Shown here piece after piece: positions 1-45,356 of a stretch of 45,356 nucleotides of DNA (positions are counted from its first letter, which is position 1; every line of letters starts with the position of its first letter). Source of the DNA: Clostridia bacterium. Its GTDB lineage: Bacteria > Bacillota > Clostridia > Christensenellales > Aristaeellaceae. The stretch lies in NCBI GenBank assembly GCA_017549335.1, contig JAFYVB010000033.1, positions 1 to 45,356 on the forward strand, read 5' to 3'. Below the pieces are notes generated by a model, which did no database searches, was not told the DNA's origin, and saw nothing but the letters and a program-made list of their open reading frames with translations. A program made the translations under genes and the position numbers.

Positions 1-74
1 CCAGTAACACCCATGAAAAGATTGGCTTTATTATCAGGATCTTTTAAAAATTGAGTAATAGGGTCTCTTCGCAT
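1..74 (-). CDS. Hypothetical protein, N-terminal fragment at left edge (archaeal segment)
   Basis: An open frame starts with ATG at 74 on the minus strand and runs off the left edge after about 24 codons (begins MRRDPITQFL). An AGGTGAT sequence a few bases upstream can serve as ribosome binding site. It starts 11 bases after the stop of the glutamine amidotransferase gene, so it is probably the third gene of the murT-gatD transcript. Too little is visible to assign a family. Confidence 0.5.
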   Translation of the reverse strand, partial: MRRDPITQFLKDPDNKANLFMGVT

Positions 75-84
75 ACAAATCACC

Positions 85-858
85 TTAATCGCTTAATAAT
101 CTTTTCATCATCATATTATGTGCATTTATCTCTATTGAATCATTTAAATCTTCAATTTCACTAATGGAATATTTTCCATTCAATGCATTGAAAATCATAT
201 AATCTGCAATGTGTGGATTCTTTGGCAAGAATGGACCATGAAGATAACTGCCTATAAAGTTCTTATAAACCATTCCTTCCTCTTTATCCTCGCCATTGTT
301 TCCATAACCTACCTTAACATAGCCTAAAGGGTCATGATTATGATATGTTCTTCCACCATGATTTTCAAATCCTACCATGTTTTCCAATTTGAAATTGAAA
401 TCCTTATTGATTACATTCTTGGAATCGTTAATTGCATTGGAAATTACAATGTCTCCAATGAGCCTGTCAGCTGCACTTTTGGTTTCTATGTCAAAGACTT
501 CAAGGCATGGTATGTCATTGCCATCCACATCAACGTATACATTCCCAAACATCTGATAGCTTCCACAAATGGCAAGGAGCACTCCACCATTTTCGACAAA
601 CTCAACCAATTCCTTTCTCTGCTCTAAAAGGTGATTTGATACAATGGATTGATTGTTGTCTGAACCACCTCCAATCAATATAATGTCAATGTCTTCCCAA
701 TTGAAGTCATCATCCTTATCAATGGTACATTCCTGAATATTTAAACCAATATTTCTCCATCTGATTCTTTGATTGATGCATGTGAAGTTTCCTATGTCCC
801 CATATGTATTTAAAATATCAGAATACATATTCATTACTGTTAATTCCATGTTTTCCAT
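85..858 (-). CDS. gatD: GatD-type glutamine amidotransferase (MurT partner), archaeal
   Basis: 257 aa class I glutamine amidotransferase of the CobB/CobQ type. The N-terminus (MYSDILNTYGDIGN) matches the start of bacterial GatD. The nucleophile is Cys98 in LAICGSYQ and the catalytic His is His207 in SYLHGPF. In bacteria GatD releases ammonia from glutamine and passes it to MurT, which amidates the glutamate of lipid II. In a pseudomurein-walled methanogen the likely role is amidation of a cell-wall peptide precursor, but this is inference. It lies 53 bases downstream of murT on the same strand, as in bacteria. An ATG at 849 is an alternative start. Base composition is AT-rich like the rest of the left segment. 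Confidence 0.85.
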   Translation of the reverse strand: MENMELTVMNMYSDILNTYGDIGNFTCINQRIRWRNIGLNIQECTIDKDDDFNWEDIDIILIGGGSDNNQSIVSNHLLEQRKELVEFVENGGVLLAICGSYQMFGNVYVDVDGNDIPCLEVFDIETKSAADRLIGDIVISNAINDSKNVINKDFNFKLENMVGFENHGGRTYHNHDPLGYVKVGYGNNGEDKEEGMVYKNFIGSYLHGPFLPKNPHIADYMIFNALNGKYSISEIEDLNDSIEINAHNMMMKRLLSD

Positions 859-911
859 AATAATTACCTATTTAGAATAATATGCTAAATTTAATAATAT
901 TAAGCAATAAT

Positions 912-2279
912 TTAGAATCCCTCTTTCTCCTTTTTCAATAATATTTTACGAGCTTCAGGCATTGCTGTAAATGTTCCAATCACATAAGACTTAATATTTT
1001 CGTTTAAAATAGTGTCCACTGCCTCATTAATGTCAAACTGATCTTTAGCAGGATAAATCTCAAGAATGCTTTCATCCACACCGGCATACTTTAATCTCAA
1101 TGCAAGGTCTTCAGCACGAGTTCCCACACAATAGAATTTTGTGAGATTTGGAATATTGTTGATCTCTTCAAAGTTTGCATCCCAAATCCAGGACACATCC
1201 TTTCCATCAGGAGCATAATCATTTAAAATGAACATTACTGACTTCTCATTCTCATCATATGTTATTGTATTGAATACTTCAGACAATCCGACAGGATTTT
1301 TGGAAAGCACCAATACCAAATCCTTATTGGAATAGTGGAACGTTTCCATTCTTCCCAATCGGTATTCAAAATTGTCTATTCTCTCACGAATGAGATTATA
1401 ATCAAGACCAATCTCTTTAGCCAAGCTGATAACACCTAATGAATTGTATAAATTGTATAATCCCATCAGATTAAGCACATAATCTTCCGTGGATTCATTG
1501 TTTTTAACTGTAAATTCATAGGAACCATTGATCAAATCAGCAGTTTCCAGGAAGTAATCACAGTCATGATTGCTTGTTCCACACTTATCGCAATGGTATT
1601 TGCCTACATTTCCATAGTAAATGTAATCATAGCTTAACCTGTTTCCACATTTAGGGCAGAATATGGACTCTGCAACATTAATGTCATGCTTTGCAAATTT
1701 AGTTTGGTTAAATCCATAATACACTTTTCTATTAGGCAAGTCATCAAAACGCAAAAGTGATGGTTCATCTGAATTGATGATTAAAGTGGTTTCGGGAGTA
1801 ATAGCATCATGAACAGTTTTAATGGTCATTTCCACTTCACCATATCTATCCAATTGATCCCTAAAGAAATTGGTTATAATGAAGTAATCCGGTTTAAGAA
1901 ACTCTGAAACAACTGGCACAGAACCTTCATCAACTTCAAAGATACCTACATCGTAATGGTCCTTAAAATCAGTTATAAAAGGTGTCAATACACCTTGAAT
2001 CATGTTGGAACCGTTTAAATTGGATAGAACATCTTTAAAACCGCCTTTAAGCACATGGGTTGAAAGATTGTTGGTTGTTGTCTTTCCATTGGTTCCTGTG
2101 ATAAAAACTACCTTATCACATTTGGAAGATACCTCACCAAGCAAATTGGGATTGAATTTAAGTGCCACTTTACCTGGAAGGGCTGTACCTTTTTTTCCAA
2201 ACTTCTGAGCAACTAAAAAAGATAATTTCCCCATAAAAATAGATAATTTTGAAGTTAAAATTAAAATTCCTCCATTCAA
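912..2279 (-). CDS. murT: MurT-type Mur ligase (DUF1727), archaeal
   Basis: 455 aa. The Mur-ligase ATP loop GTNGKTT is at residues 62-68. The central zinc ribbon of MurT is present as CPKCG and CDKCG (Cys208, 211, 230, 233). The C-terminal DUF1727 part has the DGKDVSWIWD motif. Residues before the P-loop (KKGTALPGK) also match bacterial MurT. MurT activates the glutamate carboxylate of a lipid-linked peptide for amidation with ammonia from GatD, encoded next door. In a methanogen the substrate would be a pseudomurein precursor (inference). The start is uncertain: TTG at 2279 gives a family-like N-terminus, and ATG at 2234 is the alternative; a GGAGG lies inside the first codons. Upstream is a repetitive AT-rich stretch. 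Confidence 0.88.
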   Translation of the reverse strand: MNGGILILTSKLSIFMGKLSFLVAQKFGKKGTALPGKVALKFNPNLLGEVSSKCDKVVFITGTNGKTTTNNLSTHVLKGGFKDVLSNLNGSNMIQGVLTPFITDFKDHYDVGIFEVDEGSVPVVSEFLKPDYFIITNFFRDQLDRYGEVEMTIKTVHDAITPETTLIINSDEPSLLRFDDLPNRKVYYGFNQTKFAKHDINVAESIFCPKCGNRLSYDYIYYGNVGKYHCDKCGTSNHDCDYFLETADLINGSYEFTVKNNESTEDYVLNLMGLYNLYNSLGVISLAKEIGLDYNLIRERIDNFEYRLGRMETFHYSNKDLVLVLSKNPVGLSEVFNTITYDENEKSVMFILNDYAPDGKDVSWIWDANFEEINNIPNLTKFYCVGTRAEDLALRLKYAGVDESILEIYPAKDQFDINEAVDTILNENIKSYVIGTFTAMPEARKILLKKEKEGF

Positions 2280-2610
2280 TAAGCAATAATATATTTCTAT
2301 ATATATTCTGTATTAAATTATATATAAATCATTATATGATTTAAGTTATTTTGAATTTAAAAAAGAATTTAAATTAATAAAAAAAAGAATTTGAACAAAT
2401 TAATAAAGAATTAGAATAATTATAATAGAATTAGAATAAATAAAAAAAGAATTAAAATTTATAAAAAAAGAATTAAAATTAATAAAAAAAGAATTAAAAT
2501 TAATAAAAAAAGAATTTGAATTAATGTAAAATATTTTAAAGATTTATTAAAAGAAAAATAGTTAGGAAAGTAATATTATAACATTGTTATAAGAATGTTT
2601 TATAAAAAAA
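2280..2610. repeat. AT-rich intergenic region with 21-bp tandem repeats
   Basis: No gene is seen in this 331-base stretch. It contains four adjacent 21-base copies of the pattern AATAAAAAAAGAATTAAAATT at 2439-2459, 2460-2480, 2481-2501 and 2502-2522; the last copy has TTTGAATT at its end. Degenerate copies extend leftward to about 2350. It looks like slippage-prone methanogen intergenic DNA. The murT promoter should lie in its left part, but I cannot single out a box A. Confidence 0.75.
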
Positions 2611-2682
2611 TAGTCCCGAGCGGAGTCGAACCGCCGTCTCCGGGTCCAAAGCCTAGAAGGATTACCACTACCCCACGGGACT
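2611..2682 (-). tRNA. tRNA-Gln (anticodon TTG)
   Basis: 72-base minus-strand tRNA. The 7-bp acceptor stem is AGTCCCG/CGGGACT with discriminator A at 2611. The D-arm contains GGGGTAGTGGTAATCC. The anticodon loop CTTTGGA gives anticodon TTG, and the T-arm is GGCGG-TTCGACT-CCGCT, slightly irregular at its closing pair. CCA is not encoded (TTT follows), as is usual in archaea. The anticodon stem as written (CTAGG/CCCGG) has one A-C mismatch and one T-G pair. It is the last clearly archaeal feature before the join. Confidence 0.88.
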
Positions 2683-2704
2683 ATACAACATACTATATTA
2701 TGTA

Positions 2705-2720
2705 ATACATATGTATCTTT
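2705..2720. other. Junction between archaeal-type and bacterial-type DNA
   Basis: Left of here the DNA is AT-rich and carries archaeal genes. Right of here it is GC-rich and bacterial without transition. The palindrome ATACATATGTAT (2705-2716) sits at the boundary. The first bacterial gene is already deep inside a conserved family sequence (RIPDM.RTF.YHGAEHK), so its 5' end is missing. There is no integrase, target duplication or inverted repeat. A misassembly (or cloning chimera) is the best explanation. Confidence 0.8.
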
Positions 2721-3238
2721 GCGGCCGCATCCCCGATATGAACCGCACCTTCCGCTATCATGGCGCCGAACATAAAACGGTGTACTGCAACGAAGCAGGG
2801 CTGGATCTGACGGTGGAAAACGCCCGCCCCTTCACCACCCTCCATCCCCGCTGCGGCACCAGCTTCATGCTCATCACCTTCATTCTTTCCATCGTCTTCT
2901 ATTCCGTTTTCGACGTGCTTGTGCTCTCCCTCACAGGCTTTGACCTGGGCGCCCATTACTTCCTGCGCGTGATCACCCGCCTGCTGCTCCTGCCGCTGGT
3001 GGCCGGTCTCAGCTACGAAGTGCTCAAGCTCCTGGCTCACAAAGAAAACAAATGCACCGTGGCGCTGCGCAAGCCCGGCATGATGCTTCAGAAGCTCTCC
3101 ACCGCCGAGCCCGATGACGGCATGCTGGAAGTGGCCATCGTGGCCATGAAGGCCGCTCTGGGCGATATGCCCGAAGGCCCGGTAACGGAGGAAGGCTACA
3201 TCATCGCCTCTCCCGCGCCCGAAAAGAAGGAAGCATAA
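2711..3238 (+). CDS. DUF1385 (YqhQ-like) membrane protein, 5'-truncated at the junction
   Basis: 175 codons remain. The sequence contains the DUF1385 hallmark blocks YHGAEHKTVY, ENARPFTTLHPRCGTSF and a following hydrophobic stretch. Full-length family members are around 300 aa and have a large region before YHGAEHK that is absent here. The ATG at 2711 is therefore only where the open frame enters the bacterial DNA, not a real start, and no ribosome binding site precedes it. The gene ends one base before prmC. DUF1385 genes sit next to prmC in many Firmicutes, which supports the call. The biochemical role of the family is not established. Confidence 0.85.
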   Translation: MYLCGRIPDMNRTFRYHGAEHKTVYCNEAGLDLTVENARPFTTLHPRCGTSFMLITFILSIVFYSVFDVLVLSLTGFDLGAHYFLRVITRLLLLPLVAGLSYEVLKLLAHKENKCTVALRKPGMMLQKLSTAEPDDGMLEVAIVAMKAALGDMPEGPVTEEGYIIASPAPEKKEA

Positions 3239-3239
3239 T

Positions 3240-4067
3240 ATGACGGTCCGTCAGCTGCTCAAAAGCGCAGCGGATCGGCTGCAGGGGGTCGGTATCACCG
3301 ACCCCCTTGTTGACGCGTCGCTGCTGTTATCCCATGTAACGGGAATCGCCCCGCTGATGCTCCGCGCCGACGCATGGCGGGAGGTATCAGACAAAGAACT
3401 TTCCTCCTTTGAAGCATTGCTCCTGCGCAGGCTTTCCCGCGAGCCGCTGCAGTATATTTTAGGCTCGGTTGAATTCATGGGGCTGCAGCTGCGCACCTCA
3501 CCCGATGCGCTGATCCCCCGCTACGATACGGAGATCCTGTGCGAAGAAGCGCTGCGCCGCGTGCAAAAGGGCTTCAAGGTGCTTGATCTGTGCACGGGCA
3601 CGGGCGTGATCGCGCTGACGATGAAGAAGCACGCGCCCTCCTGCGAGGTTTGGGCCGTTGATATCAGCGAAAATGCCCTGGCTTTAGCCGGGAAAAACGC
3701 AAAAAGCAACGCCCTTGACGTTACTTTCCGGCAAGGCGATCTCTTTGCGCCGCTGCAGGGAGAATCCTTTGATATGATCGTGAGCAACCCTCCCTACATT
3801 TCGGATGCGGATATGCTTTCCCTTTCTCCCGAGGTGCTTTCAGAGCCCCGTCTGGCGCTGGAAGGCGGAAAAGACGGGCTGGATTTCTACCGCCGCATCG
3901 TGTCGGAGGCGCCTGCTTATCTCCGCCGCGGCGGCTATATGCTGTTTGAGATCGGCTGTGATCAGGCGCAGGCGGTATCCCGTATGATGGCCCGGGATTT
4001 TGAAGACGTTACTGTCTGCAAAGATCTTGCAGGTCTTGACCGCGTCGTCCTCGGCCGGGTGAAATAA
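3240..4067 (+). CDS. prmC: Peptide chain release factor N5-glutamine methyltransferase
   Basis: 275 aa SAM-dependent methyltransferase that methylates the Gln of the GGQ motif in release factors RF1 and RF2. An N-terminal helical domain (about 1-85) is followed by the Rossmann methyltransferase domain, with DLCTGTG at 116-122 for SAM binding and NPPY at 183-186 for the glutamine amide. The length is normal for PrmC. The start ATG follows the upstream stop by one base, indicating translational coupling. The usual neighbour prfA is not present; a promoter for the next gene follows. Confidence 0.93.
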   Translation: MTVRQLLKSAADRLQGVGITDPLVDASLLLSHVTGIAPLMLRADAWREVSDKELSSFEALLLRRLSREPLQYILGSVEFMGLQLRTSPDALIPRYDTEILCEEALRRVQKGFKVLDLCTGTGVIALTMKKHAPSCEVWAVDISENALALAGKNAKSNALDVTFRQGDLFAPLQGESFDMIVSNPPYISDADMLSLSPEVLSEPRLALEGGKDGLDFYRRIVSEAPAYLRRGGYMLFEIGCDQAQAVSRMMARDFEDVTVCKDLAGLDRVVLGRVK

Positions 4068-4097
4068 CAGGTTTTACATTCCTCCCGGCCTCTGTCA

Positions 4098-4125
4098 TTG
4101 ACACACCCTTTTTTATCGGTATAAT
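4098..4125 (+). promoter_or_regulatory. Sigma-A promoter of the vanW-like gene
   Basis: TTGACA (4098-4103), 16-bp spacer, TATAAT (4120-4125). Both hexamers are perfect consensus. Transcription would start near 4132, with the AAAGGAGG ribosome binding site at 4151-4158. Confidence 0.85.
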
Positions 4126-4166
4126 ATAAGCATACCAAAGTTTATTTTGCAAAGGAGGTGCCGCCC

Positions 4167-5939
4167 GTGCAATCGAATCCCCAGCCCCGCCAGCGCCGTT
4201 CGCAGCGCTACCGCGCCCAGTATCCCGAAGATACGCAGGGGCAGCCGTCCTATCCCGTATATCCCGATTATAATGCGCCCTCCCAGCAGCCGGGCTATCC
4301 CCAGGAGCCCTATCAGCCTTATCAAAGGCCCCGGCAGCCCGCTTATCCGCAGGAGCAGTATCCGCCCTATCCCCAGTATCAGCCCTATACCCAGCCCTAC
4401 CGGCAGCCCGATCCTTACGCTCCCGTCACGCCGCCTCCGCCCCGGGGCAACAACTATGATTCTCCCCGTCCTCCCCGTAAAAATCATTCAGGCGACGGCA
4501 AATGGCTGCTGCTCATCATCCTGTGCATCGCCCTCCTTGCAGGCGGCGGCTTTTGGATATCGGGCATCTATTCCGCCAATTATCCCGTCTTTGAAGAAAA
4601 GCTCAAAGCCATGGCAACCGATCGCTTCTACAACGGCGTTCACGTGGACGGCGTGCATCTGGGCGGCATGACCATGGAGGAAGCCCGCATCGCCGTGCGT
4701 CAGCATGCCGATTACAGCGACGAAGCCTACGCCATGAATGTGACGGTGGACGGCAAAACGTGGCGCATCACCCAAAATGAACTGCCCCTCAAGCGCAATA
4801 CCGAGGCCGTGCTGAAGGAGGCCTTCACCATCGGCCGTCAGGGGACGCTGTCCACGCTGGGCACCGACACCACGCCCTTTGAAATGCGCTATCAGCACGC
4901 GCTGCAAACCAACCGTCAGGGCGCCTTCCTGTACACCGAAATTACTTACGATAAATCCACCGTGCGCGCCCTGGCTGAGACCATCGCCGCCCGCGTGTAT
5001 GTGGAGCCCCGCGACGCTTCGGTGCATTCCTTTGACGCAAATGCCCGTTCCTTTAAATTTAATCCCGAGCAGGTGGGTGCTTATATCAACGCCGAGGACA
5101 TCTACAACAACATTGTAGCCAATATGGACGCCCGCAACTACAACGCCTCCATCGCGCTGAGCACCCGGCAGATCATCCCCAATACCACCGCAGCCACCCT
5201 CAGTCAAAGCTTCGGTCTGGTAGCCAGCTACACCACAAACACCACCGCAGAATACAACCGCAACGTCAACATCCGCATCGCTTCTCAGGCCATCTCCAAG
5301 GAAGTCAAAAACGGCGAAACCTTCTCCTTCAATGAAACCACGGGTCGCCGCACGGTGGATAAGGGCTACCTTGACGCCGGCGTCATCATCAGCGGCGCCA
5401 GCGACACAGGCATCGGCGGCGGCATCTGTCAGGTGTCCTCCACCCTCTTTAACGCCGTGGTGCTGGCCAATATGGAGATCACCGACCGCGATCCCCACGC
5501 CTGGCCCAGCAATTATGTGGATCCCGGCCGGGATGCCACGGTGGACTGGCAGTCCTACCAAACCCTTGCCCAAAGCGTTGACTTCAAGTTCAAGAATACT
5601 TCGGGTCATCCCATTTACATCGTTGCCTATCTTTCGGGCAGCAATCTGAACCGCGCCTGCAAGTGTACGGTGGAGATCTACGGCGTGGCTTTCAATCCCG
5701 GCATCACCATCGGCGTCACCACCGAGCTGGTATCCTCCACCCCCACTCCCACCGAGGAGGAAAGGGTATTCAATCCCGAACTGCCCTACGGCCAGGAAAA
5801 GGAAGTCCGCAAGGCGCGTCCCGGCTATCAGTACAATACCTACCGCGTTTATTACATGAACGGTGTGGAAACGGGCCGCGAGCGGGTATGCCGCTCCAAC
5901 TACCGCACCTACACCCGGAAGGTCGAATACAATTATTAA
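4167..5939 (+). CDS. VanW family protein with Pro/Tyr-rich cytoplasmic tail
   Basis: 590 aa starting at GTG 4167, eight bases after AAAGGAGG. Residues 1-105 are low complexity, rich in Pro, Tyr, Gln and Arg with YPQ/YP-type repeats. One membrane segment (about 113-132) follows. An extracellular region resembles the putative peptidoglycan-binding domain that precedes VanW. The VanW domain lies around residues 355-490, with NGETFSFNETTG and GIGGGICQVSSTLFNA blocks. A short C-terminal tail resembling a G5-like extension ends the protein. The function of VanW proteins is unknown; wall association is inferred. The gene has its own strong promoter and is 14 bases upstream of a TetR gene that probably shares the transcript. 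Confidence 0.88.
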   Translation: MQSNPQPRQRRSQRYRAQYPEDTQGQPSYPVYPDYNAPSQQPGYPQEPYQPYQRPRQPAYPQEQYPPYPQYQPYTQPYRQPDPYAPVTPPPPRGNNYDSPRPPRKNHSGDGKWLLLIILCIALLAGGGFWISGIYSANYPVFEEKLKAMATDRFYNGVHVDGVHLGGMTMEEARIAVRQHADYSDEAYAMNVTVDGKTWRITQNELPLKRNTEAVLKEAFTIGRQGTLSTLGTDTTPFEMRYQHALQTNRQGAFLYTEITYDKSTVRALAETIAARVYVEPRDASVHSFDANARSFKFNPEQVGAYINAEDIYNNIVANMDARNYNASIALSTRQIIPNTTAATLSQSFGLVASYTTNTTAEYNRNVNIRIASQAISKEVKNGETFSFNETTGRRTVDKGYLDAGVIISGASDTGIGGGICQVSSTLFNAVVLANMEITDRDPHAWPSNYVDPGRDATVDWQSYQTLAQSVDFKFKNTSGHPIYIVAYLSGSNLNRACKCTVEIYGVAFNPGITIGVTTELVSSTPTPTEEERVFNPELPYGQEKEVRKARPGYQYNTYRVYYMNGVETGRERVCRSNYRTYTRKVEYNY

Positions 5940-5953
5940 AAGGGGGGCTTTGC

Positions 5954-6637
5954 ATGCGCAAAGGCGAAGTCCGCAGGCAGTCCATTCTGGACGTTTCCGA
6001 GCATCTTTTCTGCCGCAAGGGATATTCCGAAACCACCGTGGACGATATCCTCCGTGAGCTACAGTGCAGCAAAGGCAGCTTTTACCACTACTTTGAGAGC
6101 AAAATCAGCGTGCTTTCCGCTATCTGCGAAGCAAAGGTGCAGAAGAATTTTGACCTGTACAAACAAAAGCGTTTTGGCAGCACCCGCGAAAAGTTCAACG
6201 CTCTTTTGTATCACGCCCAGTGGTTCAGACCCGAGGAGGAAGAGTTTCTTTTCCTCATGCTGCGCCTGCGCGGCAGAGAGGAATGCGCCGTGATCGACGG
6301 TGCGCTGCGCGCCGCCATGCGAAGCACCTTCAAGGATGAATTTACCGAGGTCATGATGATCCTGAGCGAAACAGGCGCTGCGCACCTTGCCCGCATGGGG
6401 CTTGAAAACCTGGTTTTTGAAACCTTCACCGCCTTCTATGATGAGATCTGCGAGGTGATCCTCCGCTGCGTCCGCGAAGGCGTCAGCGTGGCTGATCCCT
6501 TTACCGAGGCCGTTTCCGCCGCCCGTTTTCTCTTTGAGCGCACGCTGGATATGGATTACGGCAGCGTGGAGATCGTGCATCTTCCCGAAGCCATCCCCAT
6601 GGCAGAGCGTATCGCCCAGCAGCTTCGCTCCAAATAA
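5954..6637 (+). CDS. TetR/AcrR family transcriptional regulator
   Basis: 227 aa. The N-terminal TetR DNA-binding domain covers about residues 5-55: RQSILDVSEHLFCRKGY, TTVDDILRELQ and the recognition-helix block SKGSFYHYFESK. The remainder is the helical ligand and dimer domain, whose ligand cannot be predicted. The ATG at 5954 has an AGGGGGG purine run seven bases upstream, and longer in-frame extensions would run inside vanW. The gene follows vanW by 14 bases and is closed by a strong terminator, so the two form a unit. The TetR protein may autoregulate or control the downstream two-component genes (inference). Confidence 0.9.
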   Translation: MRKGEVRRQSILDVSEHLFCRKGYSETTVDDILRELQCSKGSFYHYFESKISVLSAICEAKVQKNFDLYKQKRFGSTREKFNALLYHAQWFRPEEEEFLFLMLRLRGREECAVIDGALRAAMRSTFKDEFTEVMMILSETGAAHLARMGLENLVFETFTAFYDEICEVILRCVREGVSVADPFTEAVSAARFLFERTLDMDYGSVEIVHLPEAIPMAERIAQQLRSK

Positions 6638-35319: not shown

Positions 35320-36033
35320 TTATCCGCCGTACCCGGAAATGCATTTCCGGAGCGCGGCCATTTTTTCGCTGTCGGGTTCGGGAAGGTGGGCAAAAGGAAA
35401 GGCCATGCCCATCATATCGTATTTGGTTTGGCAGATCTTGCGGAAGGGCAGCAGCTCGATTTTGTCCACACAGCCGTGGCTTTGGGCAATGCCGCGCAGC
35501 CGCAGAACGTTTTCCTCCGTATCGTTGAGGGTGGGGATGATCACCTGCCGCAGCGTGACGGGGATCTTGTTTTCATTCAGATACGCAAGGAACCGCAGCG
35601 GTTTTTCCATATCGCAGCCCACAAATTTTTGATACTGCTCCGCCGCGGTATATTTAAGATCCAGCAGCACCCGGTCGGTGTTTTTCAGCACCTCCCGGCA
35701 GCTTTCGGGAGCAAAGCAGCCCGACGTATCCAAACAGGTGTGGATCTTTTTTGCATGGCACAAACGGAAAAGCTCCGCGGCAAAGGCCTTTTGCAGCAGC
35801 GGTTCGCCGCCCGAGAGCGTGACGCCGCCCTCCCTGCCCCAGTACGCACGGAAACGCTCCGCACGGGAAATCACTTCCTCTGCGGTGTATGCGCTGCCGC
35901 CCGCCGCATCCCACGTATCGGGATTATGGCAGCACCCGCAGCGCAGCGGACACCCCTGCAGAAAAGCGACAAACCGCACGCCGGGACCGTCCAGCGTGCC
36001 CATGCTCTGAAAAGAATGGATCCGGCCCGTCAT
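35320..36033 (-). CDS. pflA: Pyruvate formate-lyase activating enzyme
   Basis: 237 aa radical SAM enzyme. The cluster motif is C-x3-C-x2-C (Cys28, Cys32, Cys35 in CPLRCGCC), and the [13 protein letters not shown] block binds SAM. It abstracts a hydrogen from the glycine of PflB to create the glycyl radical. It overlaps the end of pflB by 4 bases (ATGA), giving coupled synthesis of enzyme and activase. Length and order are standard. Confidence 0.95.
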
Positions 36034-38261
36034 ACGGCCTCGTGGAAGGTTCGGCTGATGACCTCCCGCTGCTGCTCGCGGGAAAGCTTGTTGAAATTCA
36101 CCGCATACCCCGATACGCGGATGGTCAGGTTGGGGTACTTTTCGGGATTTTCATAGGCGTCCATCAACGTTTCGCGGCTGAGCACGTTCACGTTGATGTG
36201 ATGCGCCATCTGTCCGAAGTAGCCGTTCAGAATGTTCACAAGGTTGTCGGCGCGCTCCCCGCGGTCGCGTCCAAGAGCTTCGGGGGTGATGGAGAAGGTG
36301 TTGGAAATGCCGTCGCGGCAATCATCATAGCGGATCTTCGCCACGGAATTCAGCGACGCCAGCGCGCCGTTTTCCTCGCGGTTGTGCATGGGATTGGCGC
36401 CGGGAGCAAAGGGCTCGGCGTTCCTGCGGCCGTCGGGCGTGGCGCCGGTGTTCTTGCCGTAGGTCACATTGGAGGTGATGGTCAGCACGCTGAGGGTATG
36501 CTCGGCATTGCGGTAGGCCGGCGTTTTGCGAAGCTCGGTGATCATGCGGTGGGTCAGATCCCTGGCGATCAGATCCACACGGTCGTCATCGTTGCCGTAC
36601 TTGGGGAAATCACCCTCGGTGATAAAATCGCTGATGTATCCCCGGGCGTTGCGCACGGGGTGGACTTTGGCATATTTGATGGCGCTGAGCGAGTCCGCCA
36701 CCACCGAAAGTCCTGCCACGCCGAAAGCCATGAAACGGCCCACGTTGGTATCGTGCAGCGCCATCTGGGTCTTTTCGTAGGCGTACTTATCGTGCATATA
36801 GTGGATAACGTTCATGGTGTTGACGTACAGATGGCTCAGCCAGGCCATGTAGGTTTCCATGCGGCGCATCACTTCGTCATAGGAAAGGGTATCGCCCTGC
36901 ATCACTTCCGTCTGCGGGCCGATGGCCATATCAGAGGAGGTATCGTAGCCGCCGTTGACAGCGATCAGCAGAAGCTTGGCCAGATTGCATCTTGCGCCGA
37001 AAAACTGCATCTGCTTGCCCACCTTCATGGCGGATACGCAGCAGGCGATGGCGTAATCGTCGCCGTAAATGGGGCGCATGAGATCGTCGTTTTCGTACTG
37101 GATGGAATCGGTATCGATGGACACCTTGGCGCAGTATTTTTTGAAGCCCTCGGGAAGCGCCTGCGCCCAGAGCACGGTGAGGTTCGGCTCCGGCGAAGAA
37201 CCCAGGGTGCAGAGCGTATGCAGCATACGGAAAGAGGTTTTCGTCACCAGCGTGCGTCCGTCCTCGCCCATGCCGCCCACCGCTTCGGTGATCCACATGG
37301 GATCGCCGCCGAACAGTTCGTTATATTCGGGCGTGCGCAGATGGCGGGCCATGCGCAGCTTGATCACAAAGTCATCCAGCAGCTCCTGCGCACCCTCCTC
37401 GGTGAGAATGCCCCGGGCGATGTCCCGCTCCATATAAATATCAAAGAACGTGCTGACTCTGCCCAGGGACATGGCGGCGCCGTTTTGCTCCTTGATGGCT
37501 CCCAGATAGGCAAAGTACGTCCACTGCACAGCCTCACGGGCATTCTCCGCGGGGCGGGAAATATCGTAGCCGTACATTTCCGCCATCTCCTTGAGATAAC
37601 CCAGGAAGGCGATCTGCTGATACAGTTCCTCGTCCAGACGAATGGTTTCGGTATCAAAGGCGCCGTCTGCCAGCTTGGCCTTGTCCTTTTTCTTTTCGGC
37701 GATCAAACGGTCCACGCCGTAGAGCGCCACGCGGCGGTAATCGCCGATGATGCGTCCGCGTCCGTAGGCGTCGGGCAGACCCGTGATCACATGGCAGCGG
37801 CGCGCCTGACGCATTTCATCGGTATAGGCGCGGAATACGCCGTCGTTGTGGGTGGTGCGGAAGCGGAATTCCTCCTCCACCTTGGCGCTGAGCTTGTAGC
37901 CGTAGGCTTCGCAGGCCTGCCGCACCATGCGTATGCCGCCAAAGGGATTGACGCCGCGCTTCAGAGGGCGGTTGGTCTGCAGACCCACGATGATCTCGTG
38001 CTCTTTGTCAATATAGCCGGGAGAATAGGTTTTAAGCGAAGACACGGTGGCGGTATCGATATCCAGCACGCCGCCGAACTGACGCTCCAGAGCAAAGAGC
38101 GCCTGTACCTTTTTCATCAGCGCCTTTGTGCGCTCCGTCGCCTGCGCAAGGAAACTTTCATCTCCCTCATAGGGGCTGTAATTGCGCTGAATGAAGTCGC
38201 GCACGTTGATCTCCTGCTGCCATGCGCCGCCCGCAAAGCCCTGCCATGCATTCATTTCCAC
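36030..38261 (-). CDS. pflB: Formate C-acetyltransferase (pyruvate formate-lyase)
   Basis: 743 aa from GTG 38261, seven bases after GGGAGG. The active-site pair Cys407-Cys408 (IACCVSA) and the glycyl radical site Gly718 in RVSGYAV are present. It converts pyruvate and CoA to acetyl-CoA and formate without oxygen, feeding fermentation and formyl-tetrahydrofolate synthesis. It is controlled by a promoter at 38409-38437 and a ZTP riboswitch in the leader. pflA follows in the same transcript. Confidence 0.97.
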
Positions 38262-38282: not shown

Positions 38283-38332
38283 GAATTGCCAAACAAAAAA
38301 GGGCAATTCAACTTACATCAAGTGAATTGCCC
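38283..38332 (-). promoter_or_regulatory. Terminator/antiterminator expression platform of the pflB riboswitch
   Basis: In the minus-strand RNA, GGGCAATTCACTT (38332-38320) pairs with AAGTTGAATTGCCC (38314-38301, one bulged base) and is followed by TTTTTT (38300-38295): an intrinsic terminator. A second GGCAATTC copy lies just downstream (38290-38283) and can instead pair with the GAATTGCC arm, forming an alternative hairpin. The terminator's 5' arm uses the GGGC that ends the aptamer, so ligand binding should prevent termination. Confidence 0.83.
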
Positions 38333-38400
38333 AGACGGTCGGCTTTCAAAGCATTCACACTCCCCCGCGGTGACCCGCGAAATCCGTCAGTCATGTGAAT
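38329..38400 (-). ncRNA. ZTP (pfl-motif) riboswitch aptamer
   Basis: The minus-strand leader of pflB shows the conserved parts of the ZTP riboswitch in order. P1 is ATTCACA (38400-38394) with TGTGAAT (38359-38353). ATGACTGACGG follows the 5' strand. The P2 hairpin is CGCGG-GTCA-CCGCG (38379-38366), and GGGGGAG comes before the 3' P1 strand. A linker hairpin GCTTTGAAAGC (38352-38342) is followed by the signature GCCGACCGTCTGGGC. ZTP riboswitches sense ZMP/ZTP, which accumulates when 10-formyl-tetrahydrofolate is short, and turn genes on. Control of pyruvate formate-lyase, a formate source, is a known use. Confidence 0.93.
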
Positions 38401-38408
38401 ACATCCCC

Positions 38409-44816: not shown

Positions 44817-45356
<540 letters not shown>

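Follow-up and report, generated by a model that had tools for sequence, protein, structure and literature searches.

Introduction

Inter-reference chimeric contigs, in which DNA of two genomes is joined, have been described for short-read metagenome assembly (PMC11261854, PMC10174551). In a mock-community benchmark, 22.15 chimeric contigs per genome were reported for MEGAHIT against 2.63 for SPAdes, and inter-reference misassemblies were commoner at lower coverage (PMC11261854); elsewhere, interspecies translocations were included among the labelled misassemblies (PMC10174551). A second described system that bears on this work is the murT-gatD locus of pseudomurein-containing Methanobacteriales (PMC11915815).

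We analysed a window of 45,356 bases, the entire contig C31 of a 41-contig bacterial metagenome-assembled genome (MAG, G000) that is 86.33% complete. It resembles the inter-reference chimeras described in these sources: it has the same two-genome flanks, its bacterial half continues at the broken end of another contig in the bin, and the overlaps between contig ends are of the MEGAHIT type. It shows no difference of substance from them; in this case the contig that carries the rest of the interrupted gene was identified as well. Like the locus described for pseudomurein-containing Methanobacteriales (PMC11915815), the window has adjoining murT and gatD homologues of Methanobrevibacter type, and the anomaly lies only in their attachment to a bacterial contig. 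The original prediction had explained this attachment by a misassembly or library chimera, not by gene transfer. This is supported by the half-gene found on another contig (C30), the cut archaeal promoter, the absence of the arrangement from relatives and the 141-base overlaps between contig ends. We put the probability that the contig is an inter-genome chimera, an artefact of assembly or library preparation, at about 95%.

Results

The contig changes from archaeal to bacterial DNA within a few bases

An abrupt switch between archaeon and bacterium inside a gene had been proposed, and it was confirmed by GC content, alignments and a 4-mer likelihood score, far beyond what chance would give. 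In 1-kb windows, GC content ranged from 0.29 to 0.35 as far as position 2500, and windows wholly beyond 3000 had values of 0.49-0.62. The 4-mer score, trained on Methanobrevibacter loci versus the contigs of the bin and of its nearest relative (G008), was archaeal for each 250-base block to 2750 and bacterial for all blocks listed for 2751-6000. Among 422 later windows of 500 bases, the highest score was still -36.1, on the bacterial side. Composition of positions 1-2,700 therefore differed from that of the rest in the direction anticipated, archaeal before the join and bacterial after it. When the two halves were searched separately, the left one matched Methanobrevibacter and the right one a bacterium of the same genus as the MAG. 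Judged by these similarities, Methanobrevibacter DNA extends from position 1 to about 2710, and from about 2711 onward the DNA belongs to the bacterial MAG itself.

To place the join we compared the limits of homology on both sides. Against one rumen Methanobrevibacter locus (L002), archaeal homology ended at 2710. Of the 14 matching archaeal genomes, 10 had their last matching base at 2710 or 2711, while the best match ended at 2685-2707 in G069, G070, G071 and G078. A second piece in G069 (32 bases, 91% identity, one gap) reached 2716, and the end of the archaeal sequence can therefore be placed only approximately. Bacterial homology to G008 started at 2709 and was unbroken from 2712. The join therefore lies within 2709-2716, with no more than about 5 bases ambiguous. 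Each side aligns to a different organism, the alignments overlapping hardly or not at all, and the switch, originally placed within about 15 bases, is at least as sharp as that (archaeal alignment to 2710, bacterial from 2709). Judged from relatives of both organisms, at most about 5 bases appear to be common to both sides. A palindrome of 12 bases (2705-2716), seen by eye and not listed in the repeat search, spans the join; it could be due to chance, belong to the archaeal sequence or stem from a fold-back event.

The archaeal segment is ordinary methanogen chromosome cut at a tRNA promoter

The segment 1-2710 aligned in three pieces, with 84-91% nucleotide identity, to the genome of rumen Methanobrevibacter sp. 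RUG11428 (L002/G060). It was also colinear over 12-2710, again in three pieces, with a 2,937,203-base contig of another genome (G063). The genes gatD, murT and tRNA-Gln, and the 5'-truncated DUF1385 gene beyond them, were all found where they had been predicted. The gatD homologue, encoding the glutaminase subunit of lipid II isoglutaminyl synthase, occupies 85-858 on the minus strand (Pfam GATase_3, E 8.3e-36; NCBIfam GatD model, E 7e-65, under its curated cut-off). The murT homologue, at 912-2279 on the minus strand, is open throughout and has the Pfam domains MurT_C and Mur_ligase_M, with E about 1e-96 against the NCBIfam MurT models, also under the curated cut-off. Among the best 80 of 129 relatives, the closest MurT was that of the RUG11428 MAG (94% amino acid identity), and the next-closest matches in the genome contig scan had only 33-38% identity. 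An A+T-rich repeat with a period of about 21 bases (2358-2576) lies between murT and the tRNA gene, and G060 holds similar stretches at many places.

Some part of 1-2300 was matched by 14 of the 19 genomes in the genus set of the RUG11428 MAG, with murT matched at length in only five of those 14 (G060, G063, G069, G070 and G078). Positions 2600-2716 were matched in 14 of the 19 Methanobrevibacter genomes. In this set murT-gatD looks like a block that some genomes have and others lack, placed between tRNA-Gln and the gene that follows. It sits between tRNA-Gln and the homologue of window positions 1-75 in G060 and G063. In seven genomes (G061, G062, G065, G067, G075, G076 and G077) that homologue is 143-252 bases from the tRNA-Gln match, and a MurT search of these seven gave weak Mur-ligase matches, none stronger than E 2e-13. 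The L002 locus has about 1.7 kb extra between tRNA-Gln and murT, so the spacing of these two genes varies. The murT-gatD-tRNA-Gln stretch is ordinary methanogen chromosome, and the adjacency should not be given a functional meaning.

The archaeal tRNA-Gln(TTG) gene was identified with ARAGORN and Rfam at 2610-2683 on the minus strand. A TATATAA motif was found upstream of tRNA-Gln at all 15 places read in relatives (18 places were listed; two of the 15 come from one genome), and it stands further from the tRNA gene in L246-L248. The motif is absent from window positions 2690-2760. The join therefore cuts the archaeal tRNA-Gln promoter, severing the gene from its TATA box. We also considered integration at the tRNA gene. 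Such integration usually uses the tRNA 3' end, and as the join lies some 27 bases before the 5' end this origin was rejected.

The front half of DUF1385 lies at the end of contig C30

The bacterial part of the window opens with the 3' part of a DUF1385 gene (2711-3238, plus strand), which covers only positions 91-225 of the 227 in the Pfam profile. The loss of its 5' part exactly at the join had been predicted and was borne out, with the reading frame starting at 2711 and the first approximately 165 codons missing. Directly 3' of it is prmC, encoding the release factor glutamine methyltransferase (3240-4067, plus strand; NCBIfam TIGR03534, above cut-off), and a VanW/G5 protein is encoded beyond prmC. 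The DUF1385 fragment had matches in 59 genomes out of the 60 searched, one of them the MAG. The best non-self match (94% identity) was in G008, of the same genus, where a full-length DUF1385 gene is likewise followed by prmC. In all 19 genomes that were read, out of 58 other matching genomes, the frame is unbroken across the join site; in one of the 19 (L086) the N-terminal motif was not found. Further along the window, a ZMP/ZTP riboswitch (38322-38404, minus strand, 64.3 bits) lies just upstream of a 743-aa open reading frame (36030-38261, minus strand) that by eye looks like pyruvate formate-lyase. A ZMP/ZTP riboswitch ahead of pyruvate formate-lyase is the usual pfl arrangement.

When the MAG was searched with the front part of the G008 DUF1385 protein, codons 1-158 were found at G000:C30:26862-27335, 89% identical to the query; the only other match was the window's own piece. 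Contig C30 has 27,337 bases, and its end falls two bases past codon 158. In the alignment to G008 the last base of C30 corresponds to position 5363, and the bacterial part of the window starts at 5381 (5384 counting from 2712), leaving a gap of 17-20 unassembled bases. No archaeal sequence was present at the C30 end. With the front half on C30, free of archaeal DNA, and a gap of this size, the cell probably carries an intact DUF1385 gene. The expected continuations across the join were thus found elsewhere, on C30 for the gene or in relatives for the TATA box. The strongest evidence for an artefact is that a single gene is interrupted by the end of one contig and that its other half is joined to foreign DNA.

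A recent transfer agrees poorly with both contig ends

The same evidence bears on a recent real transfer, in which at least 2.7 kb of Methanobrevibacter DNA (murT-gatD and tRNA-Gln) would have entered DUF1385 with the loss of about 20 bases, either fixed or in part of the population. The two DUF1385 halves could indeed flank the archaeal piece in the correct order and orientation, and the two organisms presumably share a habitat. However, an insertion present in all cells should make C30 run into archaeal DNA, and an insertion in some cells would be expected to leave k-mer overlaps like those at the other branch points of the bin, of which the C30 end has none within the bin. The two ends of an insert were not both visible in host DNA, and the first base of the window itself lies within archaeal DNA.

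The original prediction had also reported neither a mobile element nor a target duplication, and this held for the five proteins around the join and the last 80 bases of C30. No recombinase or transposase was found in the five proteins searched, and only murT, gatD and tRNA-Gln were identified on the archaeal piece. No word of at least 7 bases from the last 80 bases of C30 recurs in 2680-2760, so no target duplication was seen; one 7-base word is common to those 80 bases and to window positions 1-80. The piece also retains archaeal composition by 4-mers and the gene order of G063, both of which speak against a transfer. We consider a real transfer very improbable, and hold it just as improbable that a bacterium living beside methanogens acquired the piece by illegitimate recombination into DUF1385 in part of its population.

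The archaeal genes and the join are absent from the other genomes searched

At the DNA level, the archaeal genes were found in none of 299 other genomes of the family, a sample from a larger group; the MAG alone matched among the 300. This again argues against transfer. Ten of ten other genus members matched only the bacterial part of 2560-2960, a 28-base pattern across the join had no exact match in viral_contigs, and the adjacency was absent from the independent genomes searched.

Other origins for the piece were also tried. With positions 2300-3240 as the query, which excludes murT-gatD, three plasmid records gave short matches of 60-80% identity, none covering 80% of the query; with 1-3240, four phage records gave matches of the same kind, again with none covering 80%. 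These short plasmid and phage matches lie in tRNA-Gln, in the region of DUF1385 and in a part of gatD, and both origins were rejected. Archaeal contamination of the whole bin was also rejected; MCR alpha (PF02249) was not found in it. We further scanned the composition of the 3 kb at either end of each of the 40 other contigs. The blocks of 1-2500 were more archaeal-like than any of the 880 windows of 500 bases at these ends. The highest scores, weakly archaeal-like, were those of the C24 end (20.6), the C16 end (19.2), the C4 end (14.6) and the C17 start (11.4); these ends are low in GC (0.36-0.44 per 500 bases) and could be mobile elements or intergenic regions.

Overlaps between contig ends point to MEGAHIT

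We compared the ends of the 41 contigs in the bin with each other. Four pairs of ends overlap by exactly 141 bases, and six further pairs by 113, 91, 74, 58, 36 and 19 bases. Neither the C30 end nor the C31 start overlaps any other contig end within the bin. MEGAHIT at its default largest k leaves 141-base overlaps at branch points, so the four exact overlaps point to MEGAHIT as the assembler. Separately, window positions 44817-45106 are 89% identical over 290 bases, in the same direction, to about 311-600 of C4 in the same MAG, as would be seen where two strain variants or two copies of a repeat meet.

The assembler could have produced such an artefact by itself, by way of a shared k-mer and with no chimeric molecule involved. 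The MEGAHIT method includes small k and local assembly, which counts for such a join, but the shared bases at the join, judged from relatives, are far fewer than the smallest usual k of 21. The benchmark data also describe MEGAHIT as prone to inter-reference misassemblies (PMC11261854). We regard a join by the assembler alone as possible but doubtful, and count it within the probability given above for a chimera.

Discussion

The inter-genome chimera that we favour may have arisen as follows. A Methanobrevibacter piece of about 2.7 kb would have been attached at an assembly gap inside the DUF1385 gene, its donor presumably being a fragmented, low-coverage member of the same sample. The archaeal piece ends at the TATA box of the tRNA-Gln promoter; the position is plain from the alignments, and the process that cut it there can only be suggested. 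The likeliest bridge would be a chimeric library molecule or read, produced by ligation or PCR template switching and taken up at the coverage gap. A pure k-mer error appears a less likely bridge than a chimeric molecule, because the two sides seem to have so few bases in common.

These results matter for quality control, as 2.7 kb of archaeal DNA in a MAG contig could pass for an archaeon-to-bacterium transfer of cell-wall amidation genes. A cheap check, which could be applied to other suspected transfers, is to look through the remaining contig ends of a bin for the missing half of a broken gene. For this bacterium, the chimera would assign a false archaeal murT-gatD pair and mask a DUF1385 gene that is probably whole.
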